Shown here: positions 16,201 to 49,930 of the stretch, in pieces
Position numbering within the stretch: position 1 is the stretch's first letter
How the letters are laid out: every line of letters begins with the position of its first letter
From: Physcia stellaris
Lineage: Eukaryota; Ascomycota; Lecanoromycetes; Caliciales; Physciaceae
Reading direction: 5' to 3'
Assembly (NCBI GenBank): GCA_018902385.1
Contig: JABSSW010000001.1
Span: 1,364,001 to 1,428,000 of the forward strand
Length of the DNA stretch: 64,000 nucleotides
Notes under the pieces: model-generated
What the model was told of the DNA's origin: nothing
Databases searched by the model: none
The model's input: only the letters and a program-made list of their open reading frames with translations
Translations under genes and position numbers: made by a program

Positions 16201-17058
16201 GCTGCAGGGATTTTATCAACGGCAAATCCATGCCGAGCGACAGTTAGTAGATGTCCAAAAATTGCTCGGTGTCCTGAATGAACAGTTTTCAAAATTGGAT
16301 CAGAAGACAGAAAACAATCGGCAGCAAATCATCTCCCGTGCCACGGAGTATAGCAACCTAGTAGGGAAGACGAATCAAGAGAGGGAAGACCTCTCGCAAA
16401 GGATAAAGGTAGTCAGCGACGATGCGTTGGACAAAATCTCCGTCGTCGAGCAAGACGGCCACGACCACTTGAATCGCATCCAATTGCTGCAGAAACTCCA
16501 CCAGTCTCTACGCACAGAACACACTGAAAGCGTCGCAGAACTCCGGGCCGCCGTCAAAGCCGTCCAAAACATCGTCGAAAAAGCCGGCGTGGACAACAGC
16601 AGCGGGGCTCACGACACCGACATGGTGCAAATCAAACCCACGGTGGAAGGCATTCAAAAGCGCATGGACGATGTGTGGGACACCTTTATCAAAGAAATGT
16701 CAGCCACCCACAGCTCCCTGGCCGCCGTCCGCAAGAACGTCGAGGCCCTCAATCACGCCTGCGGCATCGAGGGTAACGTCTCCCCTCCCCCTCCCACCCG
16801 GGCACCACCCCCATCACGACGCACGAATCCAACAACACCCACGCCTCCCTCTCGCCCGCCCAACAGCTCCATGTAAGAGGCGGCTCCGTGTCTCTGCGCG
16901 CTTCTACGGAGCAGACGCTGAGGCAGGATGAGAGCTCTGATAGCGAACCTATCTCTATACCGATGAAGAGGAGGAGGGGGAGGCCGAAGCGGGGGGAGGG
17001 TGCCAGCGCGGAGAATAGCCCGCGGGAAAAAGTCCGGACGAGTGGGCGGTTGACTTAA
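13266..17058 (+). CDS. Large coiled-coil protein with C-terminal AT-hook
   Basis: Predicted protein of about 1,193 residues, not assigned to a named family. Exons are 13266-13578, 13644-13697, 13776-13829 and 13899-17058. The first three introns are 65, 78 and 69 bases, all phase 1. The N-terminus is Ser/Pro-rich with basic clusters. From about residue 200 to 1,130 it is almost entirely acidic/basic heptad-type helix (for example LQDKVRLLE, LEKISETS), so a long coiled coil. The C-terminus reads PMKRRRGRPKRGE, a clear AT-hook (RGRPK) for minor-groove DNA binding, which suggests a nuclear structural or chromatin role. The main frame and AT-hook frame differ by one base. The switch lies at a C5 run (16787-16791), and adding one base makes the whole CDS divisible by three. 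An intron from GTAACG at 16773 to an AG at 16879 is a poorer alternative. Confidence 0.8.
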
Positions 17059-18079
17059 AGGTCTCCGTGTCCTTACTGCTGTTGTGTCTGGCTTGATGGG
17101 TGGCTTGAGTCTCGTGGCATTGATGGGGGCTACCTAGGCATCTAGGTGTGAAGAGCATGTGTAGGGTTGGGGCGATGGGAGGAGTGGATTATTAACTTTA
17201 TTGTATCATTGCTTTCTCGGCAGCAGCAGCGTTATACCCAGTATCTCTTTGTACGCGGAAACATTTGCTAGATTAGGTGGTGGTGGTGGTGGGGAGCTTG
17301 TATAAAAGGTCTCTGGTATGTAGATAGCTGGATATAGCTTGCTCAACAGGCACATAAGGTACCTTTTGTTCGATTTATCATATACTTAGCTTCTCGCTCA
17401 TGTTAAGTGGACCTTGACTTAACCTTTTCAGACATGGGGGCTTGTTGAATAACACTTGCACTGGCAAATCAAGTACTAACAAACACTTTGGCAAGGTAGT
17501 AGTACTTAAATCGGTTACTTATATTCTGCGATACTGGAGATTTATGGTATAACGGCTTTTTCGGTATTTGATAGCCCCCATCTTTGTTTGACATTATTGA
17601 AGGATAGATTTACTTAACATGAATAGTTAGTTACTTTACGAGATGTGTAAGGAATTGAGTAGGGGGCCGGTGTTGGGCTGATAGTTATTATCTGGGGGGA
17701 ATCCTGCAATTGACCTGTTAATTGGGGATTGGGGATTCGAGGTATAGACGCTTCTCAAGGCCCGCGGTGGACTCGCGAGGGACTCGATGTCTGTTCCTGG
17801 GGACACTGGCTCTTACGTGGAGCAGAAGAAGCATTATCGTCGGGCCAAAAGACCCATTAAGGGAAAAGTGAGACAAGCAAAGTAATAGCCTGGCGGAAAA
17901 ACCGTTCTACATAGCTACTTCCTTCCTTCTCCTCTTCGTATTTGTACACACACGCGGGCCATGCTCATACTTCAGCGCAACCGCAACCCACTACATTCTC
18001 TCTCTCCCTCTCCACTCTCCACCCCACCTCACGCAAGCACTCAACTCAGATGAAAGAGAAAGAGAAGTTAAAAAAATTT
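17059..18079. other. Convergent 3' regions of the AT-hook gene and ATP2
   Basis: About 1 kb between two stops on opposite strands. It contains a short GGT repeat near 17280 and a CT-rich stretch at 17990-18030, which is purine-rich in the ATP2 transcript. No gene is seen. Confidence 0.6.
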
Positions 18080-20014
<1,935 letters not shown>

Positions 20015-20321
20015 TGCGACAGATATGAAAAGAAATTAGAGGATGGGGATGTACGGTAGGACTGGAGATCGAAGAGCTTGACTTGAAGAAGCGAAAGTTG
20101 AGGTTCTCATCGAGGTCGGCGAATCGGGCCGAGAGCAAAATGAACGCTAGAGTTTCTTGACCTCATTTGATGATTTTCCAGGAGAACAAGCACAACAACT
20201 GCCACCAATCATCCCGAGCATAATCAATTGACGTGTTGCAGCTGTCTCGAGCTGCATACACCTGCATATGAGCATTCTTGCTCAACAAAATCTCCAGCCT
20301 TGAACATCCCATTACGTCACA
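20015..20321. promoter_or_regulatory. Shared divergent promoter ATP2/COX5 with CCAAT box
   Basis: 307 bases separate the ATP2 and COX5 start codons. A CCAAT core lies at 20205-20209 in the context ACCAATCA, on the COX5-sense strand. CCAAT is the binding site of the HAP/CBC complex, which controls respiratory genes in fungi. That the box drives both genes is inference from position. Confidence 0.5.
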
Positions 20322-21184
20322 ATGCTACGCTCGCTCCCTCGAGCCGGTAACAACTCCCTGTACCTTCGGCCATGCCTCCGAACCACGAATTCACCCTCCA
20401 TACCATCATCCCAAGCGTGTACGATTAGCACACAGCAGCAACAGACGCGACAAGCGAGCAGCTCGCATGCTATCTCAAACCCCACACTTGCTGGTATCGA
20501 GAAGCGGTGGGAGGTCATGCCTCCCCAGGAACAGGCGGATCTGTGGATGGCATTGAGAGACAGGATGAAGATCGACTGGCATGACCTGACCATGCAAGAG
20601 AAGAAAGCCGGTGAGTATTGCTTTCTCTGGCTGGAGGTTATTCAACTGCTGGCCAAACATGATATAGCTTGACCTGTGTCATACCCACTCTACCGGTGCC
20701 TGAGGCAGTCAATGGGTTGAGAAACCCATCAATATTACTTTTCATGTGAAATTTCAGGCTGATCAAGCCTCTGTTAGCATACTGGATCGCATTCGGACCC
20801 CACGGGCCCCGCTCCCTCCCCCGCCTGGCGAGGGCAAGATGATATTCAAATACGTCTCCATCGCCATCGGCGTCTCGTTTATCCTCTTTGCTTTCACACG
20901 ATCCATGGCGCGACCGGCCCCGAAGACCATGAACGCACAATATCAAGAGATGACGAACGAATATCTAAGAGTACGTCCGATCTTCCTACCCCTTGATCGC
21001 TTAGCCCTATTCGGCCCGATTGCAGGCACTAAGCATAATTGGTGGATTATGCTGACATTCATCACTTCTACAGAATCAAAATACGGAACCAATCACCGGG
21101 GTTTCCTCAGAAGGCTACAAAGGGAAGGGAATGGTGCAAAGCAGACCACGGAAAGGAGGCATTCCCAGCGACGACGACGAGTAG
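20322..21184 (+). CDS. COX5: Cytochrome c oxidase subunit (COX5; mammalian COX4 family)
   Basis: Inner-membrane subunit of complex IV, about 197 residues. Exons are 20322-20610, 20778-20970 and 21074-21184. The N-terminal 45 or so residues are Arg/Ser/Gln-rich, a mitochondrial presequence. The matrix part has the family block DWHDLTMQEKKA-AYWIAFGPHGPR across intron 1 (167 bases). One membrane helix, YVSIAIGVSFILFAFTRSMA, precedes a short intermembrane-space tail ending SDDDE. Within exon 2 the frame of AYWIAFGPHGPR differs by one base from that of PPPGEGKMIFKYV. The change is at a C5 run (20818-20822). One added base restores the expected family spacing and puts the exon 2/3 junction in phase 0, so an assembly error is more likely than a broken gene. 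Confidence 0.92.
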
Positions 21185-21753
21185 ATCTCGAGCAAAGGGG
21201 GGACTTCCCGAGCCTGTACTTTACAGTCGACTCACTCTTCCCGCATGTTGGTGAATCACAGGTACTAGGAGTGAGGTAGTCGTGCCGGTTGGAATTAGCT
21301 AGTTTGAGAGAAGTGGGCTGGGTGGCTTCTCCTTTAGCGGCTATTTTAGCTATGGGGTCTCTTGTACAAACGCACGAGGTTGAGTGAAATTCATACATAT
21401 TCAAAGTTCATCTTCGTGGCTTGCATTCCAGCCCTCAGTCTGTCGATATCTCCTTTTCAATCGCGTAGAATCGCTCTATCCTGTCCTCTTGGCGCAGTTG
21501 CTGGATTCCGCTAGCAAAACCAGTCAGTTTGGGACGTCTCAACCCAGAAATGGTGAGTCGGTTATGGCCGCTCACTCGAAAGCCGCGCCGACGGTCACTG
21601 AGACTGTTGACGCTTACTTGCACATCGAGTGTCATTGAGAGAGCCTAATCATCGCTTAGATACCAGAACAATTTCCTTCTTTATCCTGCCATATACACAT
21701 ATCTCATATCACATTTCCCGCAACCCAAAACGCCCTAATAGTTATTTCACCTC
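21185..21753. other. Convergent 3' regions of COX5 and MCX1
   Basis: About 570 bases between two stops on opposite strands. No gene, repeat or RNA is recognised. Confidence 0.6.
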
Positions 21754-23636
21754 TCAAACAACGCCAGCAGCCGTACTCCTCTTTCGATACTCAACAAAGC
21801 TTCCTTCACTTCCTCTCTCCCCCCCACCACCGCCATCATCATCTCCCTTATCCCCATCCTTCTCCCTCCCCTCTCCCATCCTGCGATCCCACTGGTCTTC
21901 TTCCTCAGCAAGCATAGCATGAAACCTATGCTGCTGGCCCCTCGCCAGATACACAGGGGCACACTCTCTCCTTGCCACCTTATCCGTAACAAGCACATAC
22001 TTGATACTACTGCCAGGCGCCTCGAACATCGTCTCGGTCAACAACCGCTCACACACCGTTCGTAGGCCCCTCGCCCCCGTCCCCATCCCCAGCGCACTCT
22101 TCGCTACTTCTCGCAGCGCGCCACGCGTGAAACGTAGCTCTACGCCCGAAAGCTGGAATAGCTGTTCGTATTGTTTGATCAAGCTATTACGTGGCTCTGT
22201 CAGGACGCGAACGAGCGCGTCCTCGTCGAGAGCGGAGAGCGCAGCTGATACAGGGATACGGCCCACAAGCTCGGGAATGAGGCCGTAGGTCTGGAGATCC
22301 GTGGGCTCGACTAGGTCGAGGGGGTTGTAGTTTGTTGCTTCGCCCGGGGTGGTGGTGGTGAAGAAAGGGAGGTGTTTCTCGAAGAGTTTGCTTTCTTCTG
22401 AGCCGGGGGTTAGGGAGATGGGGAGATCTGCTGAGCCCAAAGATGAGGAGGAGGAAGAAGAAGAAGAGAGGGAAGAGCGGATGGGCGATCCGAAGCCCAT
22501 GGAGCCTTTGGCTATGCGGTTTAGGATTGTTTTCTGGAGGCCGACGAAGGCGCCGGCGAAAATGAAGAGGATGTTGTCTGTGCGAATAGAGTACGTTTCG
22601 GGCTTTGAAGGGCCGCTTGTAGTGTTACCTCCAGAGCTAGAGGAGCGAGAGGGTGACATTACGCCACCTGAGAGAGGACTGTTAGTTGGGTAAGTGCTTC
22701 CTGAGCCAGGACTTCTGGATGCAGAGGACTTCTCCTGTTTGGCTTGTATCTGTAGCGTTGTACCCTCGATGATTTTAAGTAAAGCTTGCTGAACGCCTTC
22801 TCCTCCCACGTCTTTACCGTGGCTGACTTTGGCAGTGGATATCTTGTCAATTTCGTCAAGGCAGATAATACCTCGTTCCGCTGCTGCTACATCATAGTCT
22901 GCGGCCGCAAGAAGTCTTTGGACGCATATCTCAGCATCCTCCCCGATGTAGCCGGCTTGTGTAAAAGGCGTGCAGTCGGACATGCTGAATGGGACGGCGA
23001 GGACGCGGGCAAGGGTTTTTGCCATGAGGGTCTTTCCGACACCTGATGGCCCGAGGAGGAGAATATTTGTCTTGTCTAGAGTTGTGGGAGTGTTGTCAAG
23101 TAGTGGCGGACTGCCGATCGACGTTGAGGGCGGATGTAAAGGAATGGCTTGACGATGACCTGGGAATTCATCTACATGTAGCAATCAGCACTTTGACTGG
23201 TTTGAAGCGGAATCAGGCTAAATGTACCTTCCAATGGATGCCCATCAGCCATTTCTCTCCTCAGCCTTTGCTGTAACATTGCCTCTTCTTCCTCTTCCCT
23301 TCGCTCCAGCTCTTGCACCCTTTGATAATGGTTGTAGACGGCTACGCTCAGGACCTTTTTCGCCCTTTCCTGGCCTACAACGAATTGGTCGAGATGCTGC
23401 TTTAGCACTCTCGGCGTCAGCTTTGGTACGCCAATAACGGATGCATCGCCAAGTGGCCCGTAAGTTTTTGGATCCGGCTCATAGCTTCCTGTGAACGGTT
23501 GGCTGTTGAAGTCGGAACGACGAAACTGTGACGACGACCGAGATGTTGAGGCTGTGCGGAGTGACCGGCATATCGAAGAGAGAGCAATGTAGGAGGATCT
23601 AGCTTGAGGACTGACAGTTACCGCGTAGCTTGCCAT
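21754..23636 (-). CDS. MCX1: Mitochondrial ClpX-type AAA+ unfoldase
   Basis: 608-residue matrix AAA+ unfoldase of the ClpX family. Exons are 23228-23636 and 21754-23171; the 56-base intron is phase 1. The N-terminus is Ser/Arg-rich with no bacterial-type zinc finger, so likely a mitochondrial presequence. The core opens with [32 protein letters not shown]. It has Walker A GPSGVGKT, pore loop GYIGED, Walker [11 protein letters not shown], and the sensor-2 region [16 protein letters not shown] Ser/Pro/Gly-rich insert of about 60 residues follows KIIEGTT, and a second Ser-rich insert follows GSMGFGSPI. That last motif aligns with the ClpP-docking IGF loop of bacterial ClpX and keeps Gly-Phe with Met for Ile. 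The acidic C-terminal tail is low complexity. Confidence 0.94.
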
Positions 23637-24140
23637 GTCTGTGGATCTGATAGCAAGTGCGATGTGGAAGGAAGAGAGACTGCGCGTCTTCTGAGGCTCG
23701 CTATCATCGTCGGTTCGATATAGATGCTCGGGTATCAGACAACCCTAGGGGCATATACCTTGAAAGAAAAGAAATTCACGGGGGAGTATCCTCGGAATCG
23801 TCATCTCCAATATCAACGGTGCATCCAGTCCACAGTCCAAGCACGTGATCTTATCCGAATTCGCTATCGGCAAGGCTTAGCGCCGCACTGTAAAGACCCG
23901 GTGCTGCGAGATGACATCGTCGAGGCTTGAAAATTGTTTTAACGGTGGGGTAAAACCTTGCAAAAACCCCGCTGTGCTCAATCAATCGGCCTTGAATGGT
24001 ACGAGGCACCATGGGCTATGAGAACGTCGCTAATACCTCCCAATTGCTCAATGTTGGGCCTACAAGAGACAGCATCGACCCTTGCCTCTCTGTGTCCGTA
24101 GTCCTACATCTTAGGAAAGTGGGAGAGAAATCTCTTGAAG
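23637..24140. other. Divergent intergenic region MCX1/GLC3
   Basis: 504 bases between two divergent start codons, so it must contain both promoters. No TATA box or repeat stands out. Confidence 0.6.
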
Positions 24141-26558
24141 ATGGCTGCTTCGGCTCTGAACAATGCATCTGACAATTCAGTACTGTCGGGTCCAGCCAGC
24201 GACAAAGTCGCTGCAGATGGGACAGGTATTTATCAATCAATCACTTTTCGTATCTTTCACTGATAAACATAGGCGTCGTACAGCTTGACCCATGGCTTTC
24301 TCCATTCAAGGATGCCCTTCGAAGCAGATACAGCCATGCCCAGAAGTGGATCAGAACGATTGATGATACCGAGGGTGGCATAGAAAAATTTAGTCGCGGA
24401 TATGAAAAATTTGGATTTAAGGCACAAGAAAACGGCGACATTACATATCGAGAATGGGCACCAAACGCTACACAAGCGTACCTGATTGGAGATTTCAGTC
24501 AGTCTGTCAATTGGGCACTGTCTTATGAGCGGCACTAAACAAACATGCTTGAAACAGACGGGTGGAATCGAGAAGCTACTCCTATGACAAGGGGTGACTG
24601 GGGGGTTTGGCAGGTGACCCTACAAGCAAGAGATGGCCAGCCGGCGATACCTCATAATAGCAAAGTTAAGGTACAAAGACCACCCCCAACGGCCCATAGC
24701 CGCCACTGACACGTCGCATAGATTTCGATGATCACACCGTCCGGCGAACGGATAGAACGGATACCAGTCTGGATCACCCGAGTAACGCAAGATCTGAAGG
24801 TATCTCCTGTGTACGACGGAGTGTACTGGAATCCACCTACGGAACAGCAATACACATTCAAGAATCCAAGGCCGCCGAAGCCAGAGAGTGCACGGATCTA
24901 CGAAGCTCATGTCGGCATATCGTCGCCTGAACACCGCATCACTACCTACAGAGAGTTTACCCAAAATGTATTGCCTCGGATACACCACCTTGGATACAAT
25001 GTCATCCAACTAATGGCAATCATGGAACACGCATATTATGCCAGCTTCGGCTACCAGATCAATAGTTTCTTCGCCGCGAGCAGTCGGTTTGGAAACCCTG
25101 AGGAGCTCAAAGAGCTCATTGATACAGCACATGGGCTGGGTATTACAGTGTTGCTGGACGTTGTACACAGTCATGCGTCGAAAAATACACTTGATGGTTT
25201 AAATGAATTCGATGGCTCAGATCATCTTTATTTCCACGCTGGAGCCAGAGGACGGCATGAGTTATGGGACAGTCGACTTTTCAATTATGGCAACCACGAG
25301 GTGCTTAGGTTCTTACTATCTAATCTCAGATTCTGGATGGAGATATATCAATTCGATGGCTTCAGATTCGATGGCGTTACGAGTATGCTATATACTCATC
25401 ATGGAATTGGGACGTGAGTACACCCTGCATCTCAATGGAATCTGGCTTACCAACCAAAGTGGATTTTCCGGAGGGTATCACGAGTATTTCGGTCCTAATG
25501 TTGACGAGGACGGTGTGGTGTATCTGATGCTGGCTAACGAGATGCTTCACAATCTTTACCCCAATTGTATAACTATCGCCGAAGATGTTTCGGGGATGCC
25601 TGCTCTGTGTATAGCGCTATCTCTTGGCGGTATTGGCTTCGATTACCGACTTGCCATGGCCATTCCGGATTTATACATCAAATGGCTAAAAGAGAAGCAA
25701 GACTCGGAATGGGACATGGGCGCTCTAGCATTCACTCTGACCAACCGAAGGCATGGCGAGAAAACCATTGCGTATGCTGAAAGTCATGATCAAGCGTACG
25801 TCAAGCCACCAGAACTCGTACTCATTGCTTATGGGATTTTGACAGACTTGTTGGTGACAAATCACTACTCATGTGGCTTATTGATAAGGAGATCTACACT
25901 CACATGTCCACACTCTCGGAGATGACGCCAGTCATCGAGAGAGGCATGAGTTTACACAAGATGATTCGACTGATCACGCATGGACTCGGCGGCGAAGGAT
26001 ATCTCAATTTCGAAGGCAATGAGTTTGGCCATCCCGAGTGGCTTGACTTTCCTCGTGAGGGAAACAACAATAGCTACAACTACGCACGGAGGCAGTTCAA
26101 CCTACCAGACGACCAGCTACTGCGTTACAAGTTCCTCAATGAATTCGACAGCAAGATGCAATGGACGGAGCAGAAGTACGGCTGGTTGCATGCACCGCAA
26201 GCCTATGTCAGTCTGAAGAACGAGCAGGACAAAGTGATCGTCTTCGAGCGTGGGGGCTTGCTTTGGATATTCAATTTCCATCCTTCTCAAAGCTACACCG
26301 ACTATCGGGTTGGTGTCGAACAGGCTGGCACGTATCAGATCGTCTTGGACACGGATGACGCGGCATACGGTGGTTTTGGCAGGAATGCCAAAGGCACGAG
26401 GTTTTTCACGACCCCGTTCGAATGGAATGGACGAAAGAATTTCGTGCAAGTGTACCTGCCTACTCGCACGGCGATTGTGAGTCATTGACTGAGTCTACAT
26501 GGTCGGTATAAGCTAACTCGGTCGACACTAGGTCCTTGCACTGGAGTCCACCATCTGA
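24141..26558 (+). CDS. GLC3: 1,4-alpha-glucan (glycogen) branching enzyme
   Basis: 702-residue glycogen branching enzyme (GH13 subfamily 8). It cuts an alpha-1,4-glucan chain and re-attaches it by an alpha-1,6 bond in the cytosol. Exons are 24141-24225, 24273-24497, 24558-24670, 24722-25413, 25460-25795, 25846-26476 and 26532-26558; all phases agree and the last exon is 27 bases. The N-terminal CBM48 part has [22 protein letters not shown]13 signatures are DVVHSH (region I), [10 protein letters not shown] with the nucleophile Asp (II), AEDVSGMP with the acid/base Glu (III) and ESHDQA (IV). The C-terminal beta domain ends [12 protein letters not shown], recovered only by splicing out 26477-26531; read-through would end six bases into that intron with a Val-Ser-His tail. 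Confidence 0.97.
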
Positions 26559-27190
26559 TGGATGCATTATTAATGTAAGACGATGGACATAAGAGGATCG
26601 ACGGCATTCTAGATTCGAGTTTGTCGTGTTCATAGATTTTTTAGCCGGGTAGTCATGAGTCTGACAGGAAGGCTGTAAATAAGCAATTGAGGTATTTTCC
26701 GTCAATCGGGCAGTTCCGATGTTCACCTGAAGGTCCCTTAGTCAAGCAAGTAAAGCGGCTTTGACTTTGATTCAACCTCTCGGGCTCCGTAACTGTCAAT
26801 CCAGCTGAGGACCGAGGGTCGTATGCGCTCTTGAGGCATCATCATATGACAGGTAAGAAATTCAACAGGCATGATCAGGGTAGCCAGCAGCGACCTTTGT
26901 CATTTTTGATTGTATGACCTTATCTAAGCGAGGCAAAGGAACTAAACGGACTCTCGGCGGAATGAGATGTGCCAAGGCTCGACATGACGTTCGGTCCGAA
27001 AGATGCCTCGTACCACACTTTCGAATAAGACCCCTCCCATTTTCCCCTGCACTCAATTCTCCTCAACAAAACACCTGCAGCTCTCCTTGAAAAATCCCTA
27101 CATCACCAGAACTCTTCACACATCACACCAATTGTAGGTACCTCTCACAAGCACTAGCAGTATACAGCTAATCGAGTCTTAGCAAACACG
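26559..27190. other. Intergenic: GLC3 3' region and GAPDH promoter
   Basis: 632 bases. The last 150 are pyrimidine-rich followed by CAA-rich sequence, the usual look of a strong constitutive fungal promoter and leader. No gene is seen. Confidence 0.6.
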
Positions 27191-28584
<1,394 letters not shown>

Positions 28585-29624
28585 GGAATAGGGAAGGACA
28601 ACGGGCTCGAAGTCGGCGGTAGCTTGGTGTGTGTTTATGAATCACCTGAAATGCAAGGACTGAAACTCGCGTTCATCTCTCATGAAGGGTTTTGAAGTTT
28701 GGAGGTTGCGAATAAAGTGAATGGTAGCCTTACCTACCCAAAAATCGATTAGATTTTCAACCACATCGTCTTCAATTTTTCTTCAAGACATGATCGTGAG
28801 GCAATGTTGATCGATTTCAGGATGCACATCCATTTTTAGTCGTAGGGGACCTGTTCCCGCGCCCAAAGCGGGCTATCATTAACTCGTAAATGAGGTTCAG
28901 AGATAAAATGTCTCAGACTTCCACGGTCGTCTTAGCAAGAGAGTATAATGAGAGAGGGAGTTGTGTTGAAGAGTTGCATCGTAAGCACTTCAAGATCATC
29001 AAAGCAGCCTGAAAGCAGAATCATTCCTACTGTCCTTCCGGAATGCGGACGCACAATCTTGGCTGCCAAGGCTGATATATTACAAAATTCTAGCGCATAT
29101 CGTATTGTAAACACCATTTGTAGGTCTAATCGAGCCGGAAAGCCAAACAACAGATAGCAACCATGGAAAGGATCTGAGTTTTAGTGTTTGCTGTCACTGA
29201 TATCTCGCTTAGGACGAAGAACCGTTCTCACAATAAGATCAAAGGTTATAAAGAGAAAGCCAGCAGACGAGGTCCAAATCAAAAATATAGACTTTTGGAG
29301 AATTTGTGTCAGTCCAGGTACAGCCATACTCGAGACAGAACCTCAAAGCTACTACCAAATTAACTCTGATCATACTAACTTTTTAATCAAGCAGAGAAGC
29401 CTCTCAAACCTCACATTTGATGCAAATAAACCACCTCTGAGTTGAGACCATTCATGATTTTTTGCATTCAAATTTGTTTGTCTTTCTGCTTGGCCAGAGT
29501 TTTAGATATCTGGACAAATCATGAAAGCTTCTAGGCATTTCTTGGGTACAGAAAGAAGCCTTTGAGGGAACATGTAGTAACAAGGGAAGGAGCGACCCAG
29601 TGCCGATCTAGACAGCCAAGCAGT
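28585..29624. other. Intergenic: GAPDH 3' region and HDA1 promoter
   Basis: About 1 kb, AT-richer than its surroundings from 28,950 to 29,550. Short frames have no recognisable content. An in-frame ATG at 29562, 63 bases before the chosen HDA1 start, could extend that protein. Confidence 0.55.
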
Positions 29625-34935: not shown

Positions 34936-37900
34936 TCAATCGCTATCACTGCTCCCACCGCTACTCCCATCACTCAACCCCCACCCATCAAGCTCACTGC
35001 TCTCCTCCTCTTCACCCATCTCCTCATCTTCATCCACCTCCCCCATCTCAACGCTACTCCCATCCCGACTCCACTCATCGTCTTCATCATCAGCCTCTCT
35101 CCCAACGACCGCCTCCCCCACCCCCTCGTCCAAAACCCCACTCCCCACCAACGCCTCAAAGCCCTCCTTCAAGCCCCTACTCCTCTCCATCTGCGCCCTC
35201 AAATCCCGATCCATAAGCGCAGCCTCCGCCTCCTCGGCCTTGGCATTGGTCTCGATCTCATCTTCATGCGCCTGCAGTCTCGCCATGACGTGTTTATGTT
35301 TCTTGACCGCTTCCCTCTCCAGCTCCGCTTGGGGCGGGATGTTATACGATTTATTCGCCATCAGGGCAGCCGGCGTGAAGACTTCAAGGTACGACCACTT
35401 CTCGGCCCATTTCTCGCGCTGGGGTTTCCCTTCGCCGTCGCCGAAGCCGGAGATGATGTGGAAGCGGCGGTAGGAATGCATATGGACGTTGGCCCAGCCG
35501 GCGAAGAAGTCGGCGAGGACGTCGTCGTTGCGCGCGATGGCGGCGTGGTCGAGGTCCCTGTCGTAGGCGACCCGGCGGCCGACTTTGGTGTTGAAGGATT
35601 TCAGCTTCGGCATGCAGTAGATGGGCGCTTCTTCTTTTGGTTCGTTTTCTTCCCAGTCGTACAGGTCTTCCGGGTCCAGCATGAATGCGATCTGTTCGTA
35701 GATTTGGACGAAGCGGCGGCCTTCTTCGTCGAGTTTGCGCTCGCGGCAGAGGTTGGTTAGGTAGCGGCGGATGTTGGGGCGGGTGATGAGCTTCCAGGTG
35801 CTGTTAGGCTTTTCGTTGAAGACGCGCAGGCGGTACCAGGTCAGGATCCGGAGGGCTTCGAGCGGCTGCAGGAGGAGGAGGGAGTCGGTGATGAGAATCA
35901 TGCAGCCATGAGGGAAGAGGCGGACGAGGTGAGATTTCGATACTTTTTGAAGGCTTATGCCCCAGACAACGATGGTGCCCCGCATCAATTTCGCAAAGTT
36001 CGGGATGTGATGAAACCTCCAGAACGTGGAATGTACCTTTTCAGGGTCAGTGGAAATTTTCCTTTTCTCCGGTGAGTGAGCATTGATGCTTACAATAATC
36101 ACGCCGTCCCTCACGTTTCGATAGAAGTAATCCCAAATTCCATCATTCTTGTCCTCATTATAAAGGTACACCTCAGCAGCGTTGTTGGCGTCGAGAAATT
36201 GTATAATCAAGTCTTGCTCGGCTTTTTGCTTCTTAGGGAAGATTAACAGAAATGTGATATTTTGCTTGGCTTTATCTTGATTGGGCTGTCGAACAATTCT
36301 TTCGTAGTCGATTCCATAAAGAGTGCGCATCACGGTATTGATGGGTAACTCGTCCATAACAAACGTGAGTTCTTTTCCCTTTTCTTCCAGTCGTTTCTTG
36401 GTTCTCTCCAACCGCTCGTTGGAGCTCTCATTTAAGGGTGACTGCATTGGACTGCGAATGATGCAGCGCAAACCGAGTGGATGCATCTGTGGAAGATGTC
36501 GATCCAAGAATGCCCAATCCTCGGAGTCCGGAGGGTATATCAAAAGCGTGAAGCCTTTGCCGAGAAAAAGTCCTCCAGCGACGTTGAGTCTCAAGGTTGA
36601 TCTTACATCATTGATTTTTTCAAGATTATAGGTGTTAGGCACTATCTGACCTGGGCAGAACAGCGGATCTGACAAGTCCTATCACGACATTATGACTGCC
36701 CTTCAAATAAGACGAACTAGCCTAAATGCATGCTTACCTTGTTGAATTGCGCCTCATAATCGGCAGCGGTACACATTGATGAAAACCAGAAATTGTTCTC
36801 TTTCGGTGCTGTCCTGTTGGCGATCAGAAGCTTCCTGGACTCTATGCTAAATCCTCTAAATCGCGCGGAACCGAGATTTTCACGCTCTGCTCCGATCAGT
36901 AAGTTTCCATAAACATCATGTATGTCATGAGACCTGATAAAGTCTCTAGCTGCTGGTGCTAAAAGGCATCTGGCTCAGCAGGCGCTTTCTCGATAGTTGA
37001 CGGACCTGCCATGATTGTGGCTCGGAGAGTAGAAGGGATTCTTTTCACGAATGGCCGGTTTGACACTATTGCTGCCTTAGAAGCAAGATGGGATCCTTCT
37101 CTTCCTGACATCTCTTCGGCTGGTGAACTAGCGACAGACGACTGAGGTAGCGTAGGTCTAGGGGCAAACCCAGGTGGTAGTGGACGTAAACCCGAGGACG
37201 ACTTGCTAGGGGGCAGGGCATGATCATCCGATAGTGAAAAGGCTTTAGACGATAGTGGTTTCGCTTCACTAGAGATCTTTTCAGAGATACCGTCGTGCTC
37301 GGGAAACTTGAATTTAACATGCTGCTTGCCATTTGGATCACTTTCAGAAGTCAGACTAGTGAGCTTCGAAGCGCTCAAGTCGGTCGAAGGGGTTTCGCTA
37401 GACATCGGTTTCGAACTGGGTATCGCTGTCATCGGATCTGAAGCAGGCCCAACCTTAAATTTTTGAGAGTAGGCCTGCAGGCTTAATACTGGCCGTTTTT
37501 TTGGTTCAGTATCCGACGTGATAGGAATTGTAGATGCTACGTTAGATTGTGTTACCCGATCAGCTGCAACTGAAGCTACGGGCTTCGATCCCACATCGGA
37601 ATGCTCATTGGATTTCACCGCTAGCTCTTCTTCCACTGCTCCTATCCAAGCAGTGTCATCAGGTCCAGTATCAAGATGTATATCAGCGTTCTGCTCCCTC
37701 TTTGGTTGACGTGACTCCAGAATCATCTCAAAAGCTGATTTGCCAGGGGCAGAAGCTGGTGCAGCTACTGTAGTTTTCTTTACAGCTTTTCCATCCTTGG
37801 GATCAATCAACTGCAAGTTGTCCATATTTGGAGCTGGTTCGGTTCGACCCTTTTTCACGGCTCTTCTCATAATTGAAAGCTTGTTGTATCTGTTCTCCGG

Positions 37901-39370: not shown

Positions 39371-40225
39371 TGTTGCTGAGACGCGCAAACATCGGAGTGA
39401 TCAATTACTGCAATGCAACTAGAGCCACATCCCCAATGTCAATGACCGAAGATGAACAAGTAGATTGAATGAGAGCAAAGCAAGTGATTGAAGGCTAAGA
39501 GTTAGCTTAGCGAACGATGCTCGGACCCGGGGAGTTCTTTGCAAAGCAACGTTACTATGATATCTGATGGTCGCTGAAAGCTCGTGCTTTTTTATGGCAA
39601 TTGTCAACAAGGTCTAGGCGCATTCATTCGAAGAATTGTCCTCCAATGAGCGGAACAGGGAAGCATGCACGATGTTAGCAAGGTTTACGTTCGCAGGATC
39701 TCGAAGGTCGCGTATAATATGCACAAACGCAAAGCGAGTCCGACTAAATTAGACAATTTTCATTGACTCTGTTTCTTCTTCGACTACCTGCCATGATACT
39801 AAGTCCTTAACTTCAAGCTTGACGGCTTCTTGTATCTTGTATCCGAAGGAGTGAGTCTCTCACCTGCCAGTGCAGTCAAAAGTGTTGATGCCAAGGCCTT
39901 AGAGACGCGTCCAAATCGAGTCGCGGACTACGGCGGCTTTTTTCTCCGAAACCGCAGTAGCCATTTTGGGGATAAGCGCGCTGATCTGCGGCCAGGTTGA
40001 ATGAGAGCCTCGCGACTGCAACCTGACTGATATCTCAACATAAACTTCAGGCTCCAGGGAAAGTGATTGCTCACTTTTTTTCGAGTGACTTTTTAAGAGA
40101 AGTAAACCCATTTGAATAATACCCAGAGAGTTTTCATTATCCTGCGTAAACGCCACTGCCAACGGCCTTGCGAACCGAATCCTGTCGACAAAGAACACCG
40201 TATCTGAGATATCTTGAAGGCAAAT
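39371..40225. other. Divergent promoter region, chromodomain gene and RAB11
   Basis: 855 bases between two divergent start codons. It includes a minus-strand frame of 127 codons (39899-40282) that overlaps the RAB11 start and has no recognisable content. Confidence 0.55.
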
Positions 40226-41076
<851 letters not shown>

Positions 41077-41468
41077 TTTATTCAGTGCTAGGGGGAGAGG
41101 ATGCATAAGTCTAGATTGGTTTCTTGCTTGTTCTACGGGATGAAGTGGCGGTGCACTACCACCTGGCGTTTTGTACTCGGATCCATACGCCTGCCCTTTG
41201 CAGGTGCAATGTTGGCGGGGCGTATCTTGCTATCAATGAATACGATTACTGAACCATCTGCAAAAATCCCTTGAATTGCAGTGAGGTAAGTATTCGCTTA
41301 CGTCTCATCTTTCCGGTCCCTAGATTATATACCCATAGGAGAGCGTGTCGACACTCCGTGCATGTTGATGTCGTAGGAAAAGTTTCCTGGAGTTTGTGAA
41401 TAACGCTCACAGCGCCTCCAACGCCGATGCTTCCGTGTAGACTCATAATAAACACAATCCCTTTCTAT
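41077..41468. other. Convergent 3' regions of RAB11 and the 41.5-kb gene
   Basis: 392 bases between two stops on opposite strands. No further structure is seen. Confidence 0.6.
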
Positions 41469-42467
41469 CTACAAATCCCTTCTCATCCTAAACCTCCTTC
41501 TCCCGTCTCCATCCTCAACGCAACCCCACGCCAAGCCCAGCTCCTTCTCCTTCCGTCCCCCAAACTTCCCAAGCAACCAGTCCGTAACACTGACCACCCG
41601 CCCGACCTTGTCCCAACTCCCACCCTCCTCCGCATGCTCAATCGTATGACTCAGTACCCTCCCCTCCTCATCAAATTCAAAAATAAACAATCCGCAAAAC
41701 TCCTCATCGTCCCTCACATCGCCCCCTAGCCACTCCGTGATCTTATCTACCTGCTCCCCGGCCCCTATCCCCGATAAAAGGCACCCATGCCTTTACCCTT
41801 GGTCTTGCCGCATGTTTTCCAGCGGACAATCAGCCGCTCGTTGCCTGCTGCTTGCGAGGTGTAGGAGGGGCCGTTCTTGACCATGCGCTCGGAGAGGATG
41901 ATGAGTTTCACGTTGCCGAGAATGGGGACACGGCCGAATGCGATAGGGGCGGTCCAGAGCGCGGCGTGGTAGGCGACGCGGCCGGAGACAGTGGGGAGGT
42001 GCGGGTGCGTCGAAGGGAAGAGATGGAGGGTTATGTGCGGGGAGAGGATCTCTGGCGGTAGGGGAGAGGCGAGGAGGGTGGGGAGACAAGACTGGAGGGC
42101 ACGGATTGCTGAGAGACTTGTCAACTTCTGGGGTGAGCATTCAGGGGATGCAGGCATACATACTCGTTCCTAGCTTGAGCGTTCGCCCATCTGGCGGTTG
42201 AGAAGATGGGGTGGAGCCTTGATCTTGAGGGTAGCGGCGTGGCGGGCTGGTACTCGTGAACCAGATCTCTGGAAATAGTTCGCGATCAGATCGTACTTGA
42301 GCCAGAGAGCGACATTGGGTGTAGAGCGTTGTGCGGACGAAGGAAGGGTACGGGCAGTCAGCGCGGTGTCCGGATTTCGAGACGGCCTGATGGCCGCGGA
42401 GTAGGTCCGAAAGTTTCAACCTCTTCATCTGTTCATATTTTCGGTGGAGGATAGCAGAGCGAATCAT
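41469..42467 (-). CDS. Unidentified protein, probably mitochondrial
   Basis: Predicted protein of about 314 residues that I do not recognise. Exons are 42164-42467 and 41469-42108; the 55-base intron has a GTATGT donor and CTCTCAG acceptor. The N-terminus (MIRSAILHRKYEQMKRLKLSD) is basic and could be a mitochondrial presequence. The rest is globular, with a C-terminal region reading LIVRWKTCGKTKGKG, FCGLFIFEFDEEGRVLSHTIEHAEE and VVSVTDWLLGKFG. Its alternating strands and final beta-bulge look somewhat NTF2-like, but this is a guess. The frame of GAFYRG and the frame of AGEQVDKITEWLGG differ by one base at a C4 run (41769-41772, plus strand). One added base makes the CDS divisible by three and gives a smooth join. 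Confidence 0.72.
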
Positions 42468-43172
42468 GCAAGAATGGGTAGCGAAGCTCGAATTCAGGTA
42501 GTGGAAAGACAAAAGTATGAATTCCACGTGACGTCAGCGTGCAGTAAATGGCATGTGACTACGGAGGCACGAGTAATCGTATGGGATTTCTGTCTCAATA
42601 ATATTAATACAGGAGTACTTAGTAGTACTATGAAGTACGAGCTCAATCTTAATGTATTAGTTCTCTGGGAATCATTCTAATGCATATAGAAACTCGCTAG
42701 GGAGGCAATTTGGACAGCGCAATCGTGCTGGACAGTACCTAGCCTGTCTGGATGCAAATGTCGATCTCTATGGAGCGAATCTCAATCCGTCATGACTGGA
42801 TATATTCGGTGGCATGGGCCTTCGGGCGTTGGAAACATGATATCCCTGTTACTATGGGTATGTGACTCTTGTATGATGCATATATGAGAAGTCTGCTCCT
42901 CTAATGGTCTCGTCAATAATGTTTACTGGCCGGCATCTGCATAGGAAACGCACAAGAGCGAGGCTGACATCCCGGGACGTATGCGGCCACCTGCGCACAG
43001 CCCTTCACATCAATGCCACATGGCGAGGAGAAGCTGATTCGTCTCTCCTTCATCATTTGTTGTTCTCGCTCTTTCCTGTAGCCAACTGTGGAAAAACAAG
43101 AACGCCGCTCACAAAGTTTCTGCTTTTCTTCAACTAGAAGAATTCTCTCTGGAGCATGTAAAGCCTACTATC
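42468..43172. other. Divergent intergenic region
   Basis: 705 bases between divergent starts of the 41.5-kb gene and the STAND-N gene. AT-rich around 42,590-42,700. No repeat or RNA is recognised. Confidence 0.6.
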
Positions 43173-44933
43173 ATGAGCTTCGGATTTAGTACCGGCGACA
43201 TACTGCTCTGTGTCCATTTAGCGCATAAAGTCTGGAGGGAAGCTCGAGATGCTGCTAACGATTTTCGAAATATATCTACGGAAGTAGCAAGCTTCAAGCT
43301 CGTCCTCGAGGAGGTGCAAGTGTCGATCTCGGAGCGTCAAATTGACGAAAGTAAAGAAAAGGAGCTTAGAGAGCTGTTGCATGGATGTCACAATGTACTC
43401 ACTGATCTGCAACAGCTTTTGGGCAGATACCGCAGCCTCGGAACGCAGAGCAGGAGGACTTGGGACAGGATTCGATTTGGGCAAGCTCCTGTCGAAAGGA
43501 TTAGGTCTCGCTTGATCTCTCACACTAGTCTACTTACATCATTCCGGTCTGGATTACACGGGTAAGAGCGTTGCGAAAATCAATAGTAAAAGAAAGGCCA
43601 GCTTGCTAATATGAGCCGCAGTGGCAGTCTTTTTCGAATCGAGAGGCTTCTAGAACAGCTCACACTGGAGTATAGATCAGGTCTCCGAGAGCCTTCAGTG
43701 ATATCGAACTCCACAATTGAATCGGCCGAGCAAGGAGATGAACTGGTGTGGTCTCAAATAAGTAAGGAACTTTAAGACGTTGGGATTACCCCAAACATGG
43801 TCGCGGAACATCAAGATTTCATTATCTCGTGGATCAAGGAAGCTTTGCTCGATGGTGAGTTCGTCGAATCAGACCCAGGTCTGGACAGCGCTGTCGAACT
43901 GCAGCCGTCCGACTCTGGAAGAGCACCAAAAAGCGTTCTCCGTTTAAAATCACTAAAGCCCGATGCGCGCCATAAATTGCTACCCAGTCCTCAGCGCACG
44001 GATTTTTCCGGTAAACTTTATCCAATAAGGGATACGATGCAATTCGAGGTCAATATAGCTTTAACGGACCTATGCATCAGAGGTTGTGAGGCATGCAGTC
44101 ATCGCAATAGGTACACTACCTTCGAGGAGGCACTGAATCATCTATGCCAATATCATCCTGGGGTCACGCAGACGGATAACTGGAATCCAATGCTCGGTAG
44201 CTTAACATCTAATCTAGATACTGATACTTACCTCAACAATGTCAAGGCCGATTACATCAGCGTGATCTACGGAGGTCTACCGTCTATAGACAATCCAAAG
44301 CTCCAAAATTCCGACTATAACAGAACCGGCACCACAGACAGCGAGCGATACGATCTTGGGGCATTTCCCACAGAATTATTACCGTTCATTAACAACTCGA
44401 TTATCCGCGAAGAAGACATCGAACAATATCACGAGCTTAGCATCACCAGAGATAGGAATAACCCTTCTCCATTTCTTGACTTCGCCAGTCATCAAATCAA
44501 GAATATTCATAGCGGCAAATACCTAGGGCTCGATCAATATCCAGACGGCGATATAAATCAATTAAAAGCTACATGTGCGGATGCGAAGGCTGCCTCGTGC
44601 TGGGAGGTCGTCAAAGACTCGGAAAATTCATATCAGATCTTCGCCAACCTCCCAGCCACCGAGGTGCCCCATGGAATCTGCTATAGACAATTTGCGAGGC
44701 CGGAGATTCGCCTAGCCTCACTAGTGCCGGAGCGGAAGCCCTTGGCTTTCGAATGGACTTTGGAGTGTTTAGGCCAAGCTTCGAGTCTGTTCAAAATTAG
44801 GCCAGTGAGTCAGCTTAGAATTGCTCTTGACGTGGACATAAATGGCGAGCTCTGGCTGTCGAAAGAGAAGGATTGTGCTTCTCAGCTCTGGGCTTTCTTA
44901 CCTGGCAGAACAGTACAATTGAGCCAACTTTGA
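43173..44933 (+). CDS. Fungal STAND-N/zinc-finger/beta-trefoil protein, interrupted by one in-frame stop
   Basis: Exons are 43173-43561 and 43622-44933, one frame after the 60-base phase-2 intron. Residues 1-130 match the helical fungal N-terminal domain found on STAND/NLR-like proteins (MSFGFSTGDILLCVHLAHKVW, then DFRNISTEVASFKLVLEEV). Further on is a block common in these fungal proteins, DVGITPNMVAEHQDFIISWIKEAL. A candidate zinc finger follows (CEAC...HLCQYH). The last 150 residues look like a ricin-B-type beta-trefoil (IKNIHSGKYLGLDQY, SCWEVVKDSENSYQI, QLWAFLP). No NACHT/NB-ARC ATPase is present. A TAA at 43773 interrupts the frame just before DVGIT. It lies inside a 54-base GTAAGG...CAAG segment that could be a frame-neutral intron, although splicing it would remove part of the conserved block. 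It may be a pseudogene, a nonsense allele or a spliced gene. Function unknown; allorecognition or defence is suggested only by the first domain. Confidence 0.65.
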
Positions 44934-45733
44934 TGGGTTCTGAGATTAACCAACGTCCGTTGAACATTGCGATAGTCGACAAGAATCTTAGTCTGTTTTC
45001 GTCGCCTTTGAGGACGATAACGGCTTGGAAGCAGCGGGATAGCCCCTTAAATTCCAAGCACGAACTCCAGCAGCCCTTGAAACAAGCCCGAGCAGTTTAG
45101 AAAAGAACTATATACAGATACTCTCTTGCAAACTGACCAAATCCCAAGAGCGGGCAACCGATGGCGCGCACACCCCGGAGTCGTGCTGTAGTTCTAGCCA
45201 CTACGCCAGGGCACGAGACAACAAGCTTGCCATTCAATCGTCCGTCCATAAGCTGTACATACCTGAGACGTACATTAACAACTATTTCAACACAGCGGAA
45301 GTCGCTGCTCGAATCTTGGCGGTCTGTGACTGTGGTAGTACTTAGCTACCCCTTAGGCTAGTATGGTGCAATTGTGCTACACTCGTTGTGGCAAGACCTA
45401 GGTGTGCTCGCTCCTTGGCTCAAAGCATAACAATTTGATATGGAAAAGGCTTCTTTTTCAGATCCCATCTCCCGCCAAAGTCGCGTCGGTCTATGAGGAT
45501 GTGGGATACGGAATAGAGCGTGTGGGCTTTTGAAGCGTACCGCGCAATTCTCGTGAACGTACCATTTAAATCTTAACGACAATGCACGCAATATGATACC
45601 GCGTGATCCGAAAATAGTAATTACAGTTCTCGAGACTCTTTAATCGGTGATCATCATCATAGATCCCGCCATGATCCTATTTTGAACCATTCACCGCAAT
45701 TTTTGAAATGTGCAAAATCCCCGACCAATGCCG
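44934..45733. other. Convergent intergenic region
   Basis: 800 bases between the STAND-N gene and RPC82 stops. The first 165 bases remain open in another frame with no domain. Nothing else is recognised. Confidence 0.55.
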
Positions 45734-48040
45734 CTAGAAGTCCCTCAAAACAGCCACTAAATCATCCAACCTCATCAACTCCCCCAGAAGCCTCTCCTCC
45801 CTAGCCCTCCAACCAGCCAGCGCCTCCTTCTCCCCCTCGCCCAGGAACTCATCTTCGTGGCCCTGCACATCGACCCTCTCGCTCTTCTCCACTGTCTCCT
45901 TCACCTTGGCCTTCTCCACGCTGATCTTTTGCAGAATGCGACACATGGTCTTATATGTCATGTCCAGGACCCTCTTCCTACACCTTTCTTCATCGAAGAA
46001 CCACAGAAAGAGGGTCTTATTCGGCGCATGCTGGGTATCCTTCGGAACATCCTGAAGCTCGAGGAAACCTTCCCTATTCATCGCAGACAGCAGTTGACGC
46101 GCGGTTTTCTGGTGGATGAGACTGTACGAGGCTAGGTTTTTCTCCTCTACTTTGCCCTTTTGAATTAAGATCCGGACAAGCCGCGCGGCGAGCGGGCCGT
46201 ATTTGGCGGTTATGGTTTGCAAAAGTGTGTGCGTGAGAAGGTGCTTGGAAAGTGCGTGGACGTCAGCGGACCAGCGTTCGTCGCTTGCGAGGGTAGCGGG
46301 GAGGTGGTAGAGAAATTTGTAGGGATGATGGGCTAGGAGGAGGAGATGCTGGCTTAGGGGGCTTGGAGGAGGCTTTGGTGGAGCAGAGCTGTGAGAGCGG
46401 CCGCGTTTCCGGGGTTCGCATTTACTGGATGGAAGTCGTCCAAGGCCAGGAGGTCTTCAGGGTCAGTGTCGACGCCTGAGACGTTGCCGTCACCGTCGTC
46501 TTCTGTGTTTTCTTCTTCGTCAGGGCTTGCGAAGCCAGCGACTTGGACGTCGTCGCTGTCATCATCAGCTTCGTGTTTTGATTTTTTCCTACGACGTTTC
46601 TTGCGATGCTCATATTGAGTCATGCTGATCTCGCTTTCATCGACGTAGCCAAGGTTGTCGGCTAAGTCGGTTGATCCGGGGAAGAAGGACTTTTTCAAAT
46701 TGGAGTCGGACGAGGAACTTATCTCCATGTTCAAATCGTTGGTTGAGAATTGGGGTAAATCCTGTGGAAGCGGGTCGCCTTCGACCGCGTTGACATCGTC
46801 TGAGAATAGCGTTCGTTTTTTGCACTCCAATTGATCTTTTTCGAGTATACTCAGCGCTACCGCGTATATCTGGGAGGTAAGAGTGCCGATGCTAGCTTCC
46901 GCCATATCAACCAGATGCTGATTCCTGTCTAAGACCAAGAATTTGTCATGATTAATGCGTAGCATGACATTCTCCTAAGTAGAAGTCAGCATTTTCTTAA
47001 CTGCTACTAGAGCTTGCAGAACATACACGTAGATCGTCGCCATTTGCGATGCTTGATTCCGTAGATAAGCGCGGGCGCTTTCCGACTTCATTTGAGAGAC
47101 TGCGAGCCTTTCGCTTTTTGCTGCTCTTGAGGTTGGAGAGCTCAGCGCGTTGAGCCTCTGTACCATGCTTCCAGCCGTGAAGCCGATCAGAAATTGCTTC
47201 ATTGTAGACGAGGGCTTCGGCCTGCTTCATCTTGGCTTTGAGCGCATCCCGGTGGGGTTCCAGTTTCTCCGCTTCGATCCTATTGTCGGCAAAAGGACGG
47301 AAATCTGATTCATGGGCCAATTGAATGACTCCAGCCTGGATCAAGTCACAGAGCGTGCCTTGAAGCGAATCAAACGAACGATCTTCCCTTTCTGCACGAA
47401 GTCTGACTTCGGCGTCCGCAGATTTGTAGCCATTAGCCAATGACTTTTTCGGAAGTGGTCCATCATCCGAGAACAAATGAGTCTGGATGAGAGCACCAAC
47501 AGAACTATACCCCTGAGCGATCAGATCAGAGACCATCTTAAAAGCCGGCTCCTCCAGCCGATCCTCCACAATTGTGAGATATTTGCCGGAGCGGAGCAAG
47601 GAGTAGCAGGTATTTTGATTGGCCTCGTACGATGTAGAGCCATCTTCAGCAGATGTATACCAAAGAACGAGATTCTCTTGAACCAGCACTGCCAAACTAT
47701 GCTTAAGCTGACGCGGGGTAAGGACGGTCTGGCGGAGTAAGGTTGCAAAATTTAGACGTCCGGAGAGGAATAGAGCTTGGAGTACACGCTGGGCACAATT
47801 AGCGATGTGTCCGAGCTTGTAGGTAACTCAGCTATCACGAGGGGCGCATTCGTTGCTTGAGCTCGAATATCAAAGTCTGCGGAAGTATTCTGAGCCAGAG
47901 AGAGACCTACAGATGAAAGGTCTCCAAGAAGGTAACCTACGATCAAGACACACAATTTCGAGGCATGCTACTCCCCCCGTGGTCAGTGAGAAATCCTGGA
48001 AGTAGAAAGCTTAGATGGATTCTCCACGTACCTCGGACAT
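45734..48040 (-). CDS. RPC82: DNA-directed RNA polymerase III subunit RPC82 (C82/RPC3)
   Basis: Subunit of the C82-C34-C31 heterotrimer that pol III needs for initiation at tRNA and 5S genes; about 689 residues. Exons from the start: 48032-48040, 47911-47967, 47027-47788 and 45734-46974. The first exon encodes only Met-Ser-Glu. The N-terminal winged-helix reads LCVLIVGYLLGDLSSRVLQALFLSGRL, then LTPRQLKHSLAVLVQENLVLW. An acidic linker lies near residues 400-450. The C-terminal winged helices and coiled coil include AARLVRILIQKGKVEEK and NKTLFLWFFDEE. The frame ending LLHQSLLQAP and the frame starting SQHLLLLAHHPYKF differ by one base at a G5 run (46357-46361). One added base gives a continuous family match and a length divisible by three. 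Divergent from QCR2. Confidence 0.92.
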
Positions 48041-48338
48041 ACTGCAACATCCGGAGAGTATGCCAAATTCTCCAGATGTTGTAACACTATTGTCACCGTA
48101 GAATCGTCATGGGGGCAGCTATGAAGGAATCTTCGTGATTCCTCCCAACGAATTTATGGTGGGGGACAGGCGAGTCATATTCACGCTGAGCCATGTCTGC
48201 GTTCGGTCCGTTGTTTCGCCGCCAGCCGAGCTTCTCAACCTCCAAATCGAATGACCAGCGACTACGGTAAACTTCTTTAGCCATTGAGGGTTTCATGATA
48301 GTTGGCGTCGCTCGTCACTCGTTCATAATCCATCGACC
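48041..48338. promoter_or_regulatory. Divergent promoter RPC82/QCR2
   Basis: 298 bases separate the two start codons, so both promoters are here. I see no clear TATA or CCAAT motif. Confidence 0.45.
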
Positions 48339-49930
48339 ATGATCGCTAGGGCGTCGCTGGGTCGAAACGCACACCGCGCTATACTACGGACGCAATGCCA
48401 ATGCCAGTCCCAACCCAGCAATCGCCGGGGTCTGGCTGCCGCAGCTTCAGGATCCTTTACTTACGAAACGGGAGAAGCAGCGGGTGTCAGATTCGGTAGC
48501 AGAGATCTTCCTGGGCCTACCACACACGTTGCCGTGGTCGCCAAAGCTGGGACTCGGTACCAGCCAGCCCCGGGGTTCACAGACGGCTTGGAAAAGTTTG
48601 CATTCAAGGTTCGTATTTATGTGGGATTGTACTCCGATGCTGAGACCATATGGGATGGAATATTACTCTTCGTTCGATGCTTACTCCTATTGCATTAGAA
48701 CACGAATAAGCGCTCTGCCCTGAGGATAACGAGAGAAGCAGAGCTATTAGGCGGGGAGCTTCACGCATACCATTCAAGAGAAAACCTCATCGTTGGTGCC
48801 AAATTTCTACGCGATGACTTGCCCTACTTTATTGAGCTGCTCGGAGAAATTATTTCGAATACCAAATTCACACGTACGGTCAATGGAGAATCTCACTGTT
48901 ATATCGCTAATCGGTGCTGAAGGTCATCAACTCCAAGAAGAAGTCCTACCCATTATCAAGCTCGCTCAAAAGACAACACTCGGCAACACAACTAACCTGG
49001 CAAGCAACTCCGCCCATGCTGTTGCGTTCCATCGCGGTCTCGGGACGCCTCTCCATCCGATGTCATCCAGCCCTTTTACGAAATACCTGAACGAGCAGGG
49101 ACTTGAGGCATTTAGTCAGGTGGCCTATGCAAAAGACAATTTTGCTGTGGTTGCAAACGGGGCAAGCCATTCGGAATTGTCAAAATGGGTTGGGGAATTC
49201 ATTTCGGACTCACCAGCCACAGCATCCTCTGATCTTCCCAAGCTTGATGGCGGCCAAACAAAGTACTACGGCGGTGAAGAAAGGATTGCCCATGACTCCG
49301 GCAATGATATGATCTTGGCCTTCCCAGGTTCCGGATCCTTCACGGGCGGGTTCTTCAAGCCAGAAATAGCAGTTCTTAAAGCACTGCTTGGAGGACAAAC
49401 CACCATCAAATGGTCCCCGGGCTTCTCCTTGCTATCAAAGGCGACAGAAGATTTCCCGAGAGTCCATATTAACACGGTCCATCATACGTATTCGGATGCT
49501 GGGTTGTTGTGCATTTCGATGTCCGGTGATGCTTTGCAGATGAGACAAGCTGCTTCCGCCGTAGTGAAGACTCTAAAGAGCGTAGCTGCTGGTGAGGTGA
49601 ACAAGGAAGATATCAAAAAGGCTGTTGCCACAGCAAGATTTCAAGCACTTGAATCTGGGCAGGCTATATCTACCGGCATCGAATTGACTGGGGCTGGATT
49701 AATAACAGGGGGAAAGCATTCCAGATTGACGAAGTGGGGAAAAGCATTCAAAGCGTCACGGAAGATCAGGTAAAAAAGGTCAGTAACACCCCCGTAAGTA
49801 TTGCTATCTTGAACTAACTCGATATTGCACGTAGGTTGCCAAATCAATGTTAGATGGCAAAGCAACGGTGTCCACGGTGGGCGACTTGTATTTGCTTCCA
49901 TTTGCGGAAGAGATGGGCCTTCACGTTTAG
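48339..49930 (+). CDS. QCR2: Ubiquinol-cytochrome c reductase core protein 2
   Basis: Core protein 2 of complex III, an M16-fold protein on the matrix side; about 465 residues. Exons are 48339-48608, 48699-48873, 48923-49778 and 49835-49930. The N-terminus is Arg/Gln/Ala-rich, a presequence ending near RRGLAAAA. The HxxEH zinc site of active processing peptidases is absent (HAYHSRENLIVGAKF aligns there), as usual for core 2. The frame of ELTGAGLITGGK and that of FQIDEVGKSIQSVTEDQVKKVAKSML differ by one base. The change is at a G5 run (49708-49712); one added base restores the family sequence and makes the CDS divisible by three. It is followed 288 bases later by ATP15 on the same strand. Confidence 0.94.

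Follow-up and report, generated by a model that had tools for sequence, protein, structure and literature searches.

Two conserved genes in the window (the whole 64,000-nt stretch of DNA analyzed here), and probably two more, shift out of frame by one base. We consider it very probable that these breaks, in COX5 and QCR2 and probably also in RPC82 and MMU163, are errors in the sequence record, that the genes themselves are intact in the organism, and that a fifth frame change, in an AT-hook gene, is either another such error or an ordinary intron. A record error is the best explanation because the shift is of one base and always one way, each of these housekeeping genes has a single break and is open elsewhere, and all four break zones contain a C/G run. 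Under this explanation, a homopolymer run would have been recorded one base short in each gene, the affected base would belong to the run that we name for it, and the cause would be a base-calling or consensus error.

An initial annotation of this stretch had described five unrelated genes that each lose frame by one base at a C or G run, with the right protein read on either side. The five run positions are exact as it gave them, and the shift (read from the open frames for RPC82 and MMU163) goes in the same direction in all five genes, with flanking frames that differ by one. The loss of frame itself is firm for two genes and probable for two more, and the AT-hook gene may be the fifth. We infer, for each gene, that the named run is the exact site of the break. 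The right protein on both sides is likewise firm for COX5 and QCR2 and probable for RPC82 and MMU163; the AT-hook gene lends this part of the claim no support, as it has no homologue and a rival 71-nt intron gives the same frame.

Table 1. Positions of the affected genes, their frame changes, and the candidate AT-hook intron
Feature	Position	Strand	Details
AT-hook gene	13640-17058	+	Frame change between 16776 and 16944
Candidate AT-hook intron (GTAAGA..GATAG, 71 nt)	16873-16943	+	From lenient model; would explain the frame without an error
COX5 (cytochrome c oxidase subunit IV/5) gene	20322-21184	+	Exons 20322-20610, 20778-20970, 21074-21184
COX5 frame break	within ~20812-20836	+	C5 at 20818-20822
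MMU163 gene (the "41.5-kb gene", Pfam PF17119)	41469-42467	-	Exons 42164-42467, 41469-42108
MMU163 probable frame break	41767-41783	-	Zone with C4 at 41769-41772 and an A4
RPC82 (RNA polymerase III subunit C82/RPC3) gene	45734-48040	-	Exons 48032-48040, 47911-47967, 47027-47788, 45734-46974
RPC82 probable frame break	G5 at 46357-46361	-	RPC3 homology begins at run
QCR2 (bc1 complex core protein 2) gene	48339-49930	+	Exons 48339-48608, 48699-48873, 48923-49778, 49835-49930
QCR2 frame break	~G5 at 49708-49712	+	Core protein 2 match up to run, tail in other frame

Frame breaks in conserved genes

With a GC content of about 50% and numerous short introns (mostly 45 to 80 nt), the window looks like fungal nuclear DNA and appears ascomycete-like. 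Searches of the window for tRNAs and Rfam families found none. Of the 140 open frames with at least 100 amino acids, 68 entered our Pfam scan, along with 2 shorter pieces. Codon bias is a weak signal by itself (0.13 nats per codon), and we therefore relied on homology instead. Possible introns at the breaks were ranked against modelled introns that come from our own gene models with hand-set splice scores, so that these ranks are partly circular. In the ranking against 52 introns the members were scored leave-one-out and the rivals were not; in the ranking against 55 all were scored alike, and the rivals rank lower. The shortest modelled intron is an apparent one of 33 nt in an M14 carboxypeptidase gene (11938-11970), the next shortest being 45 nt.

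In COX5, the Pfam COX4 domain is split between two frames, with profile positions 1 to 50 in exon 1 and positions 65 to 116 after the run. With the exons joined as far as the run, the protein aligns with seven fungal Cox5 chains through to GPR (E values of 4e-15 to 3e-9), and beyond the run the same seven chains continue more weakly in the other frame (two at 9e-6 and 1.4e-4, the remaining five at 0.14 to 0.15). On one of them, 6t0b_e, the upstream and downstream matches meet at residues 62 and 63. No GT donor was found in 20778-20853. An intron proposed by the lenient gene model (20615-20708) would bypass the break, but it outscores only 1 of the 55 modelled introns and puts the conserved AYWIAFGPHGPR stretch, which is matched to Cox5 chains, in the wrong frame. 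As the two frames meet on homologous proteins and none of the possible introns is both well supported and fitting, the sequence argues firmly for a break in COX5.

The evidence for QCR2 is of the same kind. The best match of its upstream frame stops at residue 320, whose codon lies inside the run, and some other chains reach 3 to 12 residues beyond the run. The tail, in the other frame, is matched weakly by chain 3cwb_B (E = 0.11) from residue 400, with seven further tail residues ahead of this match; the upstream match to this chain ends at residue 394 and so adjoins the tail match. Within 49690-49740, GT occurs once, at 49734, and the intron that the lenient model starts there (49734-49783) outscores 1 of the 55 modelled introns and would delete matched tail residues. 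The frames thus adjoin on homologous proteins here too, no well-supported intron fits, and we regard the predicted QCR2 break as firm. One scan of viral contigs with QCR2 found no relative.

The RPC82 break is probable, judging from the two frames in which its homology is read. The Pfam RPC82 domain and POLR3C_WHD lie in different frames, and the downstream frame matches a human RPC3 chain (2xub_A), beginning at the codon with the run's final base. On the upstream side, Pfam homology extends only to ~46513, about 156 nt short of the run, and PDB adds just a short match with a weak E value (0.003); the open frames confine the break to a zone of about 100 nt. Since the upstream homology ends there, a 53-nt intron at 46373-46425 (GTAAAT..CAAAG) is a possible alternative. 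Codon scores mildly prefer the continuous reading (+2.47 over 21 codons).

For MMU163, Pfam profile positions 25 to 139 and 192 to 251 are matched in different frames, and a break is again probable. The 52 profile positions between the two matches are unmatched, so that the residues next to the break lack profile support. The break zone, running from the last matched residue to the stop, spans 17 nt. A rival 71-nt intron outscores 1 of the 52 or none of the 55 modelled introns, and its branch score lies under all 52.

The modelled spliced coding sequences of these four genes are 593 nt (COX5), 1397 nt (QCR2), 2069 nt (RPC82), and 944 nt (MMU163), each leaving a remainder of 2 on division by three. 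The claim that one added base would make the spliced coding sequence divisible by three is thus borne out in four of four conserved genes. Agreement of all four in a single direction has a chance of 0.125. A C/G run of at least 4 is present in each of the four break zones; the chance of such a run is 0.135, 0.139, 0.100, and 0.361 per zone, and the product of ~7e-4 is to be read with C/G having been picked after the fact, without correction, and with one zone also holding an A4. The zone chances, zone limits, and codon scores were all computed with draft exon borders.

Two pairs of genes in this region stand head to head with starts about 300 bp apart, namely ATP2 and COX5 (20017-20322) and RPC82 and QCR2 (48040-48339), and each pair possibly shares a promoter. 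Between MMU163 and RPC82, open reading frames at 43038-44930 show a sub-threshold SesA-like N terminus and a weak ricin-B-lectin-like match; they may be of the fungal incompatibility type.

Gene survey and the choice of base

The survey of C/G runs in conserved genes that had been suggested was done on 20 genes of the window, where 3 of 58 C/G runs of at least 5 fall at breaks. Eighteen of these genes have a Pfam match above the cut-off, QCR2 was included through its PDB matches, and ATP15 is a gene whose identity we assume from recall alone. Sixteen are intact, with ordinary introns, over the parts that were modelled, and four are broken, which amounts to 4 breaks per 31,652 coding bases. HDA1 was traced as far as 31853, and for GAPDH the intact reading covers the two main exons, without the first and last. 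Neither a break by an inserted base nor a nonsense substitution was found in the 20 genes.

A base-count error in the record, as first proposed, is the best explanation of the breaks, but "systematic under-calling of C/G" overstates the case. In the survey, 55 of the 58 C/G runs of at least 5 lie away from breaks, and the excess over A/T (0 of 41 at breaks) is not significant (P = 0.20). For runs of at least 4, the counts at breaks are 4 of 176 for C/G versus 0 of 167 for A/T (P = 0.07). Nine C/G runs of 6 or 7 sit in open frames (four in the PANTS-like gene, two in the F-box gene, and one each in ClpX, GBE, and YME2), where "intact" means an open frame and the YME2 run alone touches a Pfam match, at its end. 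Should each of the three broken runs be one base short in the record, 3 of 12 C/G runs of at least 6 would have been miscalled, a length-dependent error that would spare most runs. Neither "systematic" nor "C/G-specific" under-calling is established. Over the whole window, C/G and A/T runs number 76 versus 84 at length 5, 13 versus 17 at length 6, and 2 versus 11 at 7 or more; at face value, this table has no clear C/G deficit at 5 and 6 and few C/G runs at 7 or more.

One further frame change was left out of the break count. A chromodomain gene stops at 36959, and an open stretch (36738-36968, minus strand) lies beyond the stop with its frame shifted the same way, beside a T4. No Pfam match was found in that stretch. 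A 47-nt intron (GTCCGT..TTTTAG) would explain the frame and outscores 20 of 54 modelled introns. Taken as an error, the change would belong to an A/T run.

Gene-model HMMs were of little help in locating the breaks. A lenient version called zero frame shifts, placing doubtful introns instead or, for MMU163, truncating the gene, and was useless as a test. A stricter version, run at two settings that gave the same five sites, called 5 shifts, of which only the one in RPC82 is at a claimed site. Of the other four, 25391 in GBE is a normal intron, 58591 merely extends the PANTS-like gene past its real start, the sequence around 13881 has no homologue, and a 47-nt intron is possible at 36960.

Introns, mutations, and recoding as alternatives

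We hold it quite possible, though short of likely, that some of the frame changes are overlooked ordinary introns, the one in the AT-hook gene above all; this would be compatible with errors in the other genes. The AT-hook gene matches no Pfam family at its cut-off, and its frame change may be either a break in a C-rich stretch (16776-16873 contains a C4 and two C5 runs, including C5 16787-16791) or an ordinary intron. The candidate intron has a good score, outscoring 28 of the 52 or 19 of the 55 modelled introns, but its branch score of 3.6 equals the lowest among the 52, and codon scores prefer the continuous reading (+6.8 over 50 codons versus -1.2 over 26). The RPC82 intron scores tolerably (9 of 52 or 5 of 55), and AAG acceptors occur in other models here as well, for example, at GAPDH 28274-28328; against it stands the mild preference of the codon scores. 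Introns are poor for COX5, QCR2, and MMU163, as their ranks indicate.

That the breaks are real inactivating mutations, in pseudogenes or mutator alleles, is very unlikely. Homopolymer runs are natural hot spots of slippage mutation, which would suit this reading, but COX5 and QCR2 encode core subunits of the respiratory chain and RPC82 one of RNA polymerase III, and all three are essential. Decay as pseudogenes also fits poorly with the single break found per gene and the open remaining coding sequence, and the Pfam scan of 70 pieces gave no second copy of the broken gene families.

Programmed -1 ribosomal frameshifting at the runs strikes us as highly improbable. A -1 step is the direction needed, and a published case exists in YIP3 of filamentous ascomycetes, which, according to the portion of PMC3777964 that we draw on, is made by -1 frameshifting at a site without a consensus heptamer. 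As in that case, the genes here have two frames of one protein that a -1 step would join. At 49705-49715, QCR2 has an in-frame heptamer of the form X XXY YYZ (GGGAAAG) suited to a -1 slip, but it is the only one among the five sites, and such a heptamer is also expected there if the run was recorded short; the QCR2 heptamer is probably a by-product of this kind. Its absence at the other four sites counts only weakly against recoding, because the YIP3 site, as described in that portion, lacks a consensus heptamer too. No downstream RNA structure stands out at any of the five sites (z = -1.18, 0.45, -1.01, -0.41, and 0.57 in simple folds against shuffles, with no pseudoknots). By comparison, the same portion of PMC3777964 gives YIP3 a possible downstream pseudoknot and recoding conserved in most Pezizomycotina, and simple structure was not found here. 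Frameshifting at YIP3 is put there at ~1% in yeast, which would be a poor route to major subunits. It is barely conceivable that in QCR2, and possibly in other respiratory genes, the run is truly short and -1 frameshifting (on G GGA AAG in QCR2) controls assembly of the respiratory chain.

Relation to published assembly artefacts

As biology, the frame breaks are most likely without importance; as a quality flag, they are important. Automatic annotation would truncate or split about one in five of the surveyed genes, and false introns in gene models can mask such breaks, as in the lenient model here.

Taking the breaks as record errors, the preferred reading, we compared them with artefacts described in the literature, in each case from part of the source. 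Pyrosequencing offers one parallel. In the sections of PMC5822529 used here, mean homopolymer accuracy is 95.8, 87.4, and 72.1% for 4-mers, 5-mers, and 6-mers, respectively; those miscalls differ from ours in coming from plasmid tests, and 6-mers of C (71.5%) and G (68.3%) were no worse than those of T (63.4%).

Homopolymer indels of long-read assemblies are closer. Direction and base preference differ among chemistries and polishers in the published excerpts. In PMC5466710, R7.3 errors are mainly deletions and R9 errors mainly insertions; the indels of a bacterial assembly in PMC12007338 are mostly false deletions, those at A/T outnumbering those at G/C about two to one; and the part of PMC7500977 consulted has run length over-predicted more than under-predicted and describes PacBio-only fungal genomes as free of the problem. 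In filamentous ascomycete assemblies, such indels drop as coverage rises, to judge from the text drawn from PMC9453082. What these reports (PMC8486125, PMC7500977, PMC5466710, PMC12007338, and PMC9453082), as far as their cited passages go, have in common with the present window is one-base indels at homopolymer runs that break otherwise intact genes. The broken share is also alike: PMC7500977, in the passage cited, has about one-fifth of single-exon genes in nanopore-only ascomycete assemblies still wrong after long-read polishing, and 4 of 20 genes are broken here. Our analysis thus suggests, as the best explanation, that the breaks are an already known kind of artefact, with a pattern that fits the class without identifying the sequencing machine.
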